Under the pieces are notes generated by a model that was given only the letters and a program-made list of their open reading frames with translations, did not search any database and had not been told where the DNA came from. Below, piece after piece: positions 975-5,004 of a stretch of DNA of 5,004 bases (the first letter of the stretch is position 1; the number at the start of each line of letters is the position of its first letter). The position numbers and the translations under genes are program-made. The DNA is taken from contig CAIQOG010000057.1 in assembly GCA_903873355.1 (NCBI GenBank), forward strand, positions 1-5,004, given 5' to 3'. The DNA is from an uncultured Bacteroidales bacterium (lineage in GTDB: Bacteria; Bacteroidota; Bacteroidia; Bacteroidales; Paludibacteraceae).

Positions 975-2211
975 AAAATTTTCCAACTGCTGTTTGTAGT
1001 TGTTTCATTGCCTGCTCTAAAATACTACGCGGACAAGCCACGTTCAGACGCAGGTGATACTCACCGCCCTGTCCAAAAACTGTTCCTTTGTTGAGACCAA
1101 GTCCCGCTTTTAGAGAAAAGAATTGGTGAAGTTCGTCGGTTTCCATGCCGAGGTCTTTGCAGTCAAGCCAAACCAGAAATGATGCTTCGGGAATCATTGG
1201 CTTCACCTGCGGAATATTCTTTTTCAGATAATCAACAACAAAATTGATATTAGCCTGAACATAATCAAGCATTTGGATGCGCCATTCTTCGCCTTGTTCA
1301 TAGGCAGCAACTGCAGCGATATAAGCAAAAATATTACCTGCATTCATCTCTGAAGCTTCCAGATAATGAGCAAATTTATCATGCAGTTCTTTGTTTGGTA
1401 TAATGAATACAGAACTGATTAATCCCGGCATGTTAAAAACCTTGGTAGGTGCCATAAATGTAACGGTGTTTTGTTCCGCCCATTCGGAAACTGTTGCAAA
1501 TGGCGTGTGAGGCGTGTTCCCCCGTAAAATCATATCAGCATGAATCTCATCAGAAACAATTGTCACTTTATTTTTTTCGCAAATTTCTGCAAATTGTTTT
1601 AATTCATCTTTTGTCCACACCCGACCACCCGGATTATGAGGATTGCAAAGGATAAATAATTTGGTTTTGGGCGAAAACTTTTTCGCCAGATCCTCAAAAT
1701 CCATTACGAATTTTCCATTTTCTTCCTTCAACTGATTGTTAACAAGCACGCGCTTGTTGTTTTCAATGACATGAAAAAACGGATAATATACCGGTGATTG
1801 AACTATGATTTCGTCGCCCACTTCAGTCAGACTTTGCACTGCAAAAGCCAGACCGGGTACAATCCCCGGCAGGAAACCCATCCAATCACGCTTCACATCC
1901 CAATCATGATGATCTGAAATCCATTTCATGGTCAGTGGAAAGAAATTTTTTGGAGGCATGGTGTAACCCAGAATTGGGTGTTCCAATCGTTCACGAATGG
2001 CATCCAAAATAAAATCAGGTGTGCGAAAATCCATATCGGCAACCCAGAGTGGCAACACATCTTCTGTCCCGAAAAGTGTTTTACAACGTTCCAGCTTTAT
2101 CGCTCCGGTGCCACGACGGTCAATTACTTCGTCAAAATTATAATTACCTCTAACCCCTAAAGGGGAACTGGAGCTACTTTCATTTCCTGTATTTTTATTA
2201 ATATTATTCAT
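949..2211 (-). CDS. patB: MalY/PatB-family PLP-dependent cystathionine beta-lyase or aminotransferase
   Basis: This 420-residue cytoplasmic protein is a fold-type I PLP enzyme of the MalY/PatB group. These enzymes cleave the C-S bond of cystathionine or cysteine conjugates, giving homocysteine or a thiol plus pyruvate and ammonia, and some have aminotransferase activity. The family opening starts at YNFDEVIDRRGTGAIK (24-39) and continues with LPLWVADMDFRTP (53-65), SPVYYPF (139-145), LCNPHNPGGR (188-197), SDEIHAD (220-226), the Schiff-base motif APTKVFNMPG with Lys257, and RLNVACPR (388-395), whose Arg388 should bind the substrate carboxylate. All key residues are present. Residues 1-23 have no counterpart in B. 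subtilis PatB, and SSSPLGVRG within them is encoded by a repeat; no alternative ATG, GTG or TTG lies in frame between them and the conserved start. The C-terminal SVGSGSRQ is also repeat-encoded. Upstream of the ATG at 2209-2211 there is only caagaccaag, no Shine-Dalgarno. Substrate cannot be read from sequence; the symbol is by family. Confidence 0.9.
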   Translation of the reverse strand: MNNINKNTGNESSSSSPLGVRGNYNFDEVIDRRGTGAIKLERCKTLFGTEDVLPLWVADMDFRTPDFILDAIRERLEHPILGYTMPPKNFFPLTMKWISDHHDWDVKRDWMGFLPGIVPGLAFAVQSLTEVGDEIIVQSPVYYPFFHVIENNKRVLVNNQLKEENGKFVMDFEDLAKKFSPKTKLFILCNPHNPGGRVWTKDELKQFAEICEKNKVTIVSDEIHADMILRGNTPHTPFATVSEWAEQNTVTFMAPTKVFNMPGLISSVFIIPNKELHDKFAHYLEASEMNAGNIFAYIAAVAAYEQGEEWRIQMLDYVQANINFVVDYLKKNIPQVKPMIPEASFLVWLDCKDLGMETDELHQFFSLKAGLGLNKGTVFGQGGEYHLRLNVACPRSILEQAMKQLQTAVGKFSVGSGSRQ

Positions 2212-2282
2212 CTTGGTCTTGAAAATAATTTAGTATTTACCTTTCTCCCTTTTAGGGGTTGGGGGTTCTTTTTAGGGGTTTA
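2146..2282. repeat. Inverted pair of C/G-run repeats spanning the PatB-like start codon
   Basis: The sequence aacccctaaagggga at 2152-2166 recurs in inverted orientation at 2246-2260 (tcccttttaggggtt), with 14 of 15 positions identical. A direct partial copy, tttttaggggtt, lies at 2269-2280, and a G run (2261-2265) sits between them. Each copy can fold into a small CCC(C)/GGG(G) hairpin. The arms enclose about 80 bases that contain the start codon of the PatB-like gene. The left arm is translated as part of that protein and the right end supplies the stop of the phosphatase-like gene. It resembles a short non-autonomous or interspersed element, but no target-site duplication is evident, so that identity is inferred. 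Confidence 0.6.
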
Positions 2283-3876
2283 TTTCAATTATCGGTTTTC
2301 CGATGCAGGCATTGGGCATTGGAATGTTAAGAATTCTGGAGATTGTTGGTGCAATGTCAGTGGTCTGATAGGAAGTGGAAATGGTTTGAGGTTTGATATT
2401 CCAGCCATAGAAATAAACCGGAGTGTACGAAACCAGCGAGTTAGATTCACCTACCGGATTGTTTTTATTGTCCACCTCCAACCAACCCGGTAATAAAGTA
2501 AATATCACATCACCAATAAAATTCTTATTACTTGAATTACGTATTTTCGAAATTTCGGAGTCCTGATTTCCCACTGAATTGATAATCTGATCGGATGAAT
2601 ATGTTGCCTGAATGCCTTCAAATTCGACCATAAACTCTGAAACTTTCTTCTGAACCTCATTAAAGTTGAGCTTTTTCTGAGTTATTTTCTCTTTATTCAG
2701 AAAAATATTTTTTCCATAATAACCGCTAATCCATTTTTCATTTCCATATAGCGCCATCAAATATGAACTCAGCAAAGCCAGCGAACGGTCAGCGTTGAAA
2801 TAACCGGCAGGAATCTTATTCTCACCAAGTTCTGAAGGCGAATGAGCAGCAGTTTGATTTCCAAATACAACAACCAGCGTTTTATCCAGCCCCACGTTCG
2901 TATCAATTGTTTTAAGCAGCGTTTCAATATCTTTATCCAGACGTAAATAAATATCTTCCTTTTCGGCAGATTGAATTGCCTGAGTTTTCTCAGAAGGAAT
3001 CCGAACCGAGAAGTTAAGCATTAAAACATCGGGATAAATATCTTTTCCGAGTTGTTCTTCTGTCAGAATTTTAGTGCCTAAATCAACAACAAGTTTATTC
3101 GCGTTGGGTGTGAATTTCAATATACTGGTATGTGTAGTCTTATTTTTGTTGCTTTTCGGGTCGTAATAAAAGCCCCATTTTTTGTCTTCGTGAAGAGGCT
3201 TATTCATGTACGTGTATATGTTGTAAAGCGGTTCCCAAATGCGTGAAGTGTAATCGTTGAATGTTCTTACGTTCATTTCGTCAGCCCAATGTGATAAGCC
3301 ATCAGAATAATAGCCGGTAGTAATCCATTTGAAATTTACATCATCAATCCATGCCACACTTTTCGCTGTATGACCGCCTAACATGATGGCTTCTTCAGGT
3401 CCCATTGCTACAGCGTAACTTTTACATTTCCCCGGATTTGTAAGCATAATTTCATCGGCTATAGTACTTGACAATAAATTATGCGCCGAAAGAGTTTGCT
3501 TTGTGCCGATTCCCACCTGATTGTCATCCTGAAGTATAGTTTCTGCACTATCATCAATTTTACTGTAAATATTATTCCCCACAATGCCATTGTAGTATGC
3601 TGTACTTCCGGTCACAACATTGGCTATATCGGATGCATTCCCAGCTGAAACAATGTTGTAGGATACATTTTGGCAATTTGCACCCTGACCGATAATTTTC
3701 TTGAAACCGTTCGGATCAAAATAATTCCATAAAATATCAATATGTTTCTGCTGAAGTCCGTTAATGAAAATACCAACAACCAAACGCGGACGTTCAGTGA
3801 CAACTGGCTGTGCAAAAAGGCTCAGTGACGCAAATGAAATGAAGAAAAGTAAGAAAATATTTCGGGATGAAAACAT
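2272..3876 (-). CDS. Secreted alkaline-phosphatase-superfamily (PafA-like) protein, probably catalytically inactive
   Basis: The protein has 534 residues. Residues 1-22 form a signal peptide (R5, hydrophobic 7-21, likely cleavage before Q23), so it is exported, probably to the periplasm. The fold is recognised from RLVVGIFING (31-40), DPNGFKKII, VVTGSTAYYNGIVGN (87-101), AIMLGGH (163-169), EDIYLRLDKDI (307-317), PVYFYGWNIK (486-495) and TDIAPTISRIL with MPNACIGKPI near the C-terminus. This order matches type I phosphodiesterase / PafA-like alkaline phosphatases. The active site is not preserved. By ungapped local alignment to remembered PafA, metal ligands D38, D305, H309, D352 and H353 become N39, I293, K297, N340 and Q341, nucleophile T79 becomes N80, and K162 and R164 become G159 and E161; only N100 (N101 here) is kept. 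No His is present where H486 is expected. The frame is open and well structured, so it is not a decayed gene. It may bind a ligand or act as a structural or regulatory pseudoenzyme; the real role is unknown. The last codons (Asn, Pro, stop) lie in a repeat. Confidence 0.85.
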   Translation of the reverse strand: MFSSRNIFLLFFISFASLSLFAQPVVTERPRLVVGIFINGLQQKHIDILWNYFDPNGFKKIIGQGANCQNVSYNIVSAGNASDIANVVTGSTAYYNGIVGNNIYSKIDDSAETILQDDNQVGIGTKQTLSAHNLLSSTIADEIMLTNPGKCKSYAVAMGPEEAIMLGGHTAKSVAWIDDVNFKWITTGYYSDGLSHWADEMNVRTFNDYTSRIWEPLYNIYTYMNKPLHEDKKWGFYYDPKSNKNKTTHTSILKFTPNANKLVVDLGTKILTEEQLGKDIYPDVLMLNFSVRIPSEKTQAIQSAEKEDIYLRLDKDIETLLKTIDTNVGLDKTLVVVFGNQTAAHSPSELGENKIPAGYFNADRSLALLSSYLMALYGNEKWISGYYGKNIFLNKEKITQKKLNFNEVQKKVSEFMVEFEGIQATYSSDQIINSVGNQDSEISKIRNSSNKNFIGDVIFTLLPGWLEVDNKNNPVGESNSLVSYTPVYFYGWNIKPQTISTSYQTTDIAPTISRILNIPMPNACIGKPIIEINP

Positions 3877-3882
3877 GTTTCA

Positions 3883-3918
3883 ATTGTAAATCGTAAATGA
3901 TAGAATTGTAAATTATAG
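3883..3918. repeat. Degenerate heptamer array between hisB and the phosphatase-like gene
   Basis: On the plus strand the units are attgtaa (3883), atcgtaa (3890), atgatag (3897), one spacer base, attgtaa (3905) and attatag (3912). The array fills almost the whole 36-base gap and contains the hisB stop codon (3913-3915) and the codon before it. Read on the minus strand it forms the leader of the phosphatase-like gene. Function unknown; it may be a replication-slippage microsatellite. No Shine-Dalgarno sequence is seen here. Confidence 0.7.
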
Positions 3919-5004
3919 AAGTCCTTTGGTGCTCGGCAATTCGTACTGATAAATATCACGCTTTACCGCCATTTTTATCGATTTTGCCAGTGCTTTAAAG
4001 ATACCTTCCAGTTTGTGATGTTCGTTTTCGCCTTCTGCTTTAATGTTCAGGTTCATACGGGCAGCATCGCTGAATGATTTGAAGAAATGGAAAATCAGTT
4101 CAGTTGGTAAATCGCCAATGTATTCACGTTTGAATTCCGCGTCGAAAACAAGCCATGCACGACCGCCAAAATCCAATGCCACCGAACAAAGACAATCATC
4201 CATGGGCAAATAAAAACCATATCGCTCAATGCCGCGTTTATTGCCGAGTGCCTTTCCAAAAGCTTCACCCAGGGCAATGGCTGTATCTTCGATGGTGTGG
4301 TGCTCGTCCACTTCCAAATCGCCTTTAACGTTGATAATCAGGTCAGAACCGGAGTGTTTTCCAATCTGTTCCAGCATGTGGTCAAAGAATTTCAGACCTG
4401 TATTGATGTTGCATTTTCCAGAACCGTCAAGATTCAGTTCAATCAAAATATCCGTTTCTTTGGTGGTGCGTTTTACAGAGGCAGTACGTTCGCCGGCAAA
4501 AAGAAATTCAGTGATTTTATTCCAGTTAGTAGTTTGTAGCGCACAGAATTCAGTCAATCCTTTTTCTGTGAGAATTTCAGCATCATCGCTTAGGAAAATT
4601 GCTTTACAACCCAGATTTTTAGCCAGTTCCACGTCGGTTATTCTGTCACCGATAACAAATGACCCTGCCAAATCATAGGCTTCCGAAAAGTATTCAGTAA
4701 GCATGGCAACTCCCGGTTTGCGGGTTGGCAGATAGTCTTCAGGGAAGGATTTGTCGATAAATATTTTGTCGAAAGTAATGTCTTCGTTAGCCAGTGTTTG
4801 CAGAAATTTAGCCTGAATATTATCGAAATTCTCCTGCGGATGTACTTCTGTCCCTAAACCATCCTGATTAGTAACCAATGCCCACTCAAAATCGAGTTTT
4901 TGGCGGATAAAGTGCAGATTACGCAACACTCCCGGCAAAAATTCCATTTGCTCCAGCGTGTCAACCTGAAAAGTTACGGGTGGTTCAACGATAATTGTTC
5001 CATC
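3913..5004 (-). CDS. hisB: Bifunctional histidinol-phosphatase / imidazoleglycerol-phosphate dehydratase, 5' end cut by window
   Basis: HisB catalyses two cytoplasmic steps of histidine synthesis: dehydration of imidazole-glycerol phosphate and dephosphorylation of histidinol phosphate. Of this copy 363 residues are visible. The reading frame runs past the ATG at 4945-4947 to the window edge and begins with DGTIIVEPP, which is the second half of the HAD motif DxDGT; roughly ten N-terminal residues are therefore missing. The HAD phosphatase domain follows, with VTNQDG (visible residues 44-49), TRKP (94-97) and GDRITD (119-124). The dehydratase domain starts near residue 175, with [20 protein letters not shown] (233-240) and ENEHHKLE (326-333) supplying the metal-binding histidines. 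It ends in STKGLL, close to the usual C-terminus. The loop that carries the zinc-binding Cys/His cluster in E. coli HisB reads [12 protein letters not shown] and has none of those residues. The stop codon lies inside a heptamer repeat. No other his gene follows downstream. Identification is secure. Confidence 0.97.

Follow-up and report, generated by a model that had tools for sequence, protein, structure and literature searches.

A Dismantled PafA-Type Phosphatase of Bacteroidales and Its Possible Link to Lipoprotein N-Acylation

Introduction

We have analyzed a stretch of 5,004 nt from an uncultured Bacteroidales bacterium (Paludibacteraceae; contig CAIQOG010000057.1, assembly GCA_903873355.1), called the window below, and in particular a gene in it for a 534-residue protein with the fold of the alkaline phosphatase PafA, called AP. 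We will show that the phosphatase site of AP has been dismantled and that close kin of the protein are encoded next to, or fused with, the lipoprotein N-acyltransferase Lnb. Our reading, to which we give somewhat better than even chances, is that AP assists lipoprotein N-acylation in the periplasm, as a non-catalytic accessory built on a PafA fold. The pseudoenzyme part of this reading is well supported. The fold, the loss of the site, its conservation within the clade, the purifying selection and the kinship with lnb-adjacent and Lnb-fused copies were all computed, and from the last of these we infer the role alongside Lnb.

Lnb, described in 2024, is the lipoprotein N-acyltransferase that finishes Bacteroides lipoproteins. 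According to PMC12994826, Lnb is DUF4105, a clade of permuted NlpC/P60 enzymes, and it has repeatedly been displaced by Lnt. The words phosphatase and SecA are absent from the main text of that paper.

Results and Discussion

The open reading frame of AP (2272–3876, minus strand) is intact from the ATG through the stop codon. Hydropathy gives a single hydrophobic stretch at the N-terminus, residues 6–22, that ends in ..FAQ and has no Cys. Together with a helix at residues 2–20 in the structure model, this points to a Sec-type signal peptide covering residues 1–22 (3811–3876, minus strand), with the cleavage site placed by inference at ..LFA-Q. Since the lipobox Cys is absent and the Pfam search found no sorting domain on the protein, AP is read as periplasmic. 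The full-length frame with a signal peptide had been seen already in an earlier sequence-only reading of this DNA, whose word "secreted" is better replaced by "periplasmic".

AP matches the NCBIfam model of PafA (NF042991) from end to end (1.2e-100), with a score of 337.5 bits that does not reach the curated cut-off of 650, and it matches the PafA structure 5tj3 in the Protein Data Bank over residues 27–532 (1.3e-49, 26% identity). It belongs to the alkaline phosphatase superfamily by a Pfam PF01663 match above the gathering score and by the matching fold. In the alignment with 5tj3, the columns are ungapped around every active-site motif. The metal ligands of PafA, which we take to be D38, D305, H309, D352, H353 and H486, are replaced in six of six cases: N39 stands at D38, I293 at D305, K297 at H309, N340-Q341 at D352-H353, and Y484 at H486. 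At the T79 nucleophile there is N80, at K162 there is G159, and at R164 there is E161; only N100 is retained, as N101. The last four PafA positions are confirmed by the mutant structure 5too (title T79S, N100A, K162A, R164A), which departs from 5tj3 exactly there. The gap-free alignment, the retained N101 and every replacement listed in the sequence-only reading are thus borne out, and the sixth ligand, where Y484 stands for H486, has to be added to its list. As all of the metal ligands and the nucleophile are gone, AP should not be able to perform the two-metal chemistry of PafA, and we predict from the sequence that it is without catalysis.

A protein search returned 476 relatives, of which the best 120 were examined for the site residues. 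The first of these, P0001, is a 99%-identical database copy and practically the window's own protein. The codons from N340-Q341 to H345 lie at 2842–2859 (this and the following codons are all on the minus strand), and N340, Q341 and H345 are each found in 120 of the 120 listed relatives, which excludes chance as the source of the replaced site. Most of the other replacements are widely shared: Asn at N80 (3637–3639) in 110/120, Glu at E161 (codons G159-P160-E161, 3394–3402) in 115/120, Tyr at Y484 (2425–2427) in 110/120, and at K297 (2986–2988) Lys in 106 and Arg in 12. Two positions of the window are in a minority state, namely I293 (2998–3000), with Ile in 6/120 and Thr in 109/120, and N39 (3760–3762), with Asn in 4/120, Asp in 115/120 and a gap in one. 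The replacements, whose conservation in homologues the sequence-only reading had proposed to test, are conserved in the relatives; N39 is a private change. A close relative with all ligands present, which had been named as a finding that would speak against a selected pseudoenzyme, was not encountered, D352-H353 occurring in 0 of the 120.

The ratio of nonsynonymous to synonymous substitution rates (dN/dS) of AP is 0.059 against L001, 0.079 against L002 and 0.120 against L003. These are the only pairs for which it could be computed; in the remaining five, the synonymous sites are saturated. For the L001 pair, the neighboring genes patB and ung give 0.070 and 0.048, respectively. The AP fold is thus kept, with its dismantled site, under purifying selection, in agreement with the earlier judgment that selection and not decay is at work. 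That the gene might instead be an isolated copy of a genuine PafA in the course of decay is suggested by D39N in the window and P0001, a state found in only 4/120 of the listed relatives. With a full-length frame, dN/dS of 0.06–0.12 and N340-Q341 in all 120 listed relatives, we consider decay very improbable.

Another option is that the old pocket now houses a different enzyme, a hydrolase or transferase that needs one metal ion or none and works with N80, E161, K297, N340-Q341-H345 and Tyr residues. The invariance of H345 in the listed relatives speaks for it, and so does the mean identity at eight chosen former-site positions, 0.93 compared to 0.80 for the background (permutation p 0.022), although these eight were picked after the counts were known. 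With all ten former active-site positions the permutation p is 0.17, and site conservation is accordingly not taken to prove that a new active site exists. Furthermore, the residues at N340-Q341 differ by clade, being NQ in the clade of the window, mostly KP in the Lnb fusions and mostly TG in the lnb-AP-secA copies (both described below), and residues 344–353, just past N340-Q341, have a predicted local distance difference test score (pLDDT) below 50 in the structure model. A new enzyme is for these reasons improbable, though less so than decay.

Relation to Lnb

We now turn to the genomic context. An AP homologue is present in 174 of 295 genomes of the order. The gene preceding AP in many of them falls in a cluster for which the member checked carries the Pfam domains Lnb_N and 5TMH_Lnb, and the gene following AP in 19 drawn loci falls in another cluster, where the member checked is SecA. 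We listed 150 AP places, 96 of them in genomes with Lnb; in 41 of the 96, lnb is on the same strand and begins or ends the gap at less than 1 kb upstream, and in 5 more it is on the same contig but far away. Both Lnb and AP are present in 116 genomes, AP only in 58, Lnb only in 18 and neither in 103 (Fisher 1.7e-19, with kinship ignored). When the genomes are sorted by their N-acyltransferase, AP occurs in 95/105 genomes with only Lnb, 21/29 with Lnb and Lnt, 52/145 with only Lnt, and 6/16 with neither. This context indicates lipoprotein N-acylation, and the earlier suggestion that AP regulates a true phosphatase found no support.

Lnt, the other N-acyltransferase, lies just upstream of a dismantled AP in L153, L154 and L155. 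The three cases belong to a single lineage (Lnt 69% identical), so this adjacency counts once, and it was not adopted as a second independent link.

A search with the fused open reading frame of L056 gave 63 proteins, and the 59 longer than 790 residues were taken as fusions in which AP is the C-terminal part. Their layout is an Lnb N-terminal domain, five predicted hydrophobic helices, a further hydrophobic stretch and the AP domain. Pfam describes the Lnb N-terminal domain as periplasmic, and the AP domain would be so as well, because the helices and then a signal-like stretch precede it. His67 and Cys166 of Lnb, which we interpret as the catalytic pair of the permuted NlpC/P60 group, are kept in 54 of 54 aligned fusions. 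The phosphatase site is lost in 59/59 fused clusters: position 80 is never Thr, 340 never Asp and 341 never His. Asp39 survives in 41 of them.

The carefully built tree has 68 rows, 14 of 82 having been left out (6 long, 8 near-duplicates). In this tree a branch with support 100/97 separates the Lnb-adjacent copies and the window clade from all other rows, among them the five with an intact site. A quick tree with all 82 rows gives the corresponding branch a support of 90. In a second tree of 56 rows, which includes 20 sampled fusions, 17 of these form the sister group of the window clade, together with L056 and the unfused L106 (100/99), and the remaining three (P0178–P0180) are nested in the lnb-AP-secA clade (100/100). 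If the tree is rooted on the intact side, Lnb and AP would have been fused on two or more occasions, or on a single one with many splits. By its position in the trees, the AP of the window thus goes with the lnb-adjacent and Lnb-fused copies; by gene order it does not, since hisB and not lnb is directly upstream.

The catalytic site (six metal ligands and the Thr) was read in 98 different homologous genes. At least one of the seven residues is missing in 91 of the 98, the Thr in 73, and all seven in 2. The seven genes with an intact set are L024, L025, L028, L050, L062, L158 and L164, where L158 has Asp in place of N100. Since the degree of loss varies, some copies distant from the window may still bind metal. 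For the 88 main copies read, an intact form occurs in 0 of 56 genomes with Lnb vs 5 of 32 without (kinship ignored). Partly dismantled copies (L063, L067, L077, L083, L089 and others) stand beside gldE-gldD-PPTase-pcrB, a gliding-motility lipoprotein region.

On the reading that we favor, AP is exported to the periplasm with its PafA-like fold and would bind a partner or ligand there, either through the old substrate face or through another surface. Candidates are the periplasmic domain of Lnb, the diacylated lipoprotein and a phospholipid head group, and the binding would aid acyl transfer by Lnb. In the relatives of the window, the AP gene, having left lnb on this reading, stands after hisB, so that any cooperation there would be in trans. 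A bolder version, which we consider doubtful, is that the whole widespread family of dead PafA-type proteins is an unrecognized accessory of Lnb (in one lineage, of Lnt) that presents the diacylated lipoprotein or the phospholipid donor, its phosphate pocket having been turned into a binding face separately in each clade.

It should be stressed that a number of results weigh against a role with Lnb. No Lnb match is found in 58 of the 174 genomes with AP, and 18 of the 134 genomes with Lnb are without AP by the window query, a profile giving weak partial matches in only 2 of these 18 and leaving 16 of the 134 with no AP match; incomplete genomes may account for some of the absences. L137 and L144 read lnb-secA directly and the AP search is empty in both genomes, an apparent loss from the cluster. 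These cases and the other AP-less Lnb genomes mean that AP is not essential to Lnb. Each of the 11 related genomes searched has its Lnb match on a different contig from AP, and in two of them (G008 and G010) that match is partial or broken. The Lnb-adjacent rows alone are not one clade, requiring two changes on the 68-row tree, so adjacency to lnb was either lost in the window clade or gained twice. In the fusions, the linker between Lnb and AP is still hydrophobic and signal-peptide-like in 54/54, and the two parts may hence be separated by signal peptidase. An AlphaFold2 model of one fused protein has a predicted template modelling score (pTM) of 0.57, each domain being confident and the docking not, and the domain arrangement in it was therefore not used. 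In the pairs other than L001, AP also changes more quickly than hisB and ung, with pN/pS (proportions of nonsynonymous to synonymous differences) of 0.23–0.29 vs 0.08–0.22. Finally, AP copies outside the Lnb-linked clade adjoin gldE-gldD-PPTase-pcrB or other genes, among them crcB or an FKBP-like gene (both named by eye), and these neighborhoods suggest that the family, taken together, may serve the envelope more broadly.

Several of these observations, namely the place after hisB in the window's relatives, the other neighborhoods in other lineages and the 58 AP genomes lacking an Lnb match, would also fit a pseudophosphatase that acts in the envelope but has nothing to do with lipoprotein acylation, such as a chaperone or scaffold for another envelope protein, the gene order at lnb being inherited and of no functional significance. 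However, such inertia hardly explains lnb directly upstream at 41 of the 96 listed places, nor fusion to Lnb in two separate parts of the tree. The latter in particular lowers the weight that we give to this alternative, which we regard as rather unlikely, and raises that of an accessory of lipoprotein N-acylation.

Neighboring Genes in the Window

All of the other genes are also on the minus strand. hisB (3913–5004; histidinol-phosphatase/imidazoleglycerol-phosphate dehydratase) ends 36 bases upstream of AP, its start lying beyond the window edge. Downstream are patB (949–2211), for a PatB-family C-S lyase, which like hisB is a neighbor of AP in related metagenome-assembled genomes (MAGs), and ung (237–899), for uracil-DNA glycosylase. 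hisB was considered as a functional partner and rejected: its distance to AP varies among the related MAGs and it is seen only in 8 related-MAG loci, so that the adjacency is taken as chance. A downstream ung is common to the window (AP-patB-ung) and L060 (lnb-AP-ung, where it follows AP directly), and in L116 ung is beside lnb.

At the AP–patB junction there is a palindromic repeat (CCCCTAAAGGGG type; window positions 2146–2166 and 2246–2280), which codes for part of the PatB N-terminus (SPLGVRG) and for the final Pro codon and stop of AP. Among the loci read for the repeat, the SPLGVRG peptide is also present in L004 and is absent from L002, L006 and L007.

Comparison with Known Systems

A literature search of titles and abstract openings turned up no account of a PafA-type pseudoenzyme family and no link between AP and Lnb; it did not extend to the original Lnb paper. 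The new element is the connection of AP with Lnb, which makes this a PafA-fold pseudoenzyme family with a likely role in lipoprotein maturation. If this is true, a protein named "alkaline phosphatase family protein" in databases belongs to envelope biogenesis, false phosphatases can be dropped from surveys of phosphorus cycling, and the mechanism of Lnb can be approached by experiment. That many lineages have lost the same two-metal site, to varying extents and by different replacements, is also useful for studies of how an enzyme turns into a non-enzyme.

Compared to PafA (5tj3, NF042991), the AP of the window differs in the six metal ligands, the nucleophile, K162 and R164, at 26% overall identity. 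Lnb (DUF4105; PF13387, PF25221) has no homology to the window protein; it is the gene partner of related APs, either directly before AP or as the N-terminal part of a fusion, and in the 11 related genomes it is on other contigs. The ectonucleotide pyrophosphatases/phosphodiesterases and the sulfatases are metal-dependent enzymes of the alkaline phosphatase superfamily, with 8–16% identity to AP. A parallel in kind is offered by pseudoenzymes of known enzyme folds, such as pseudophosphatases, in which the fold is likewise retained, the catalytic residues are lost and a non-catalytic role is selected.
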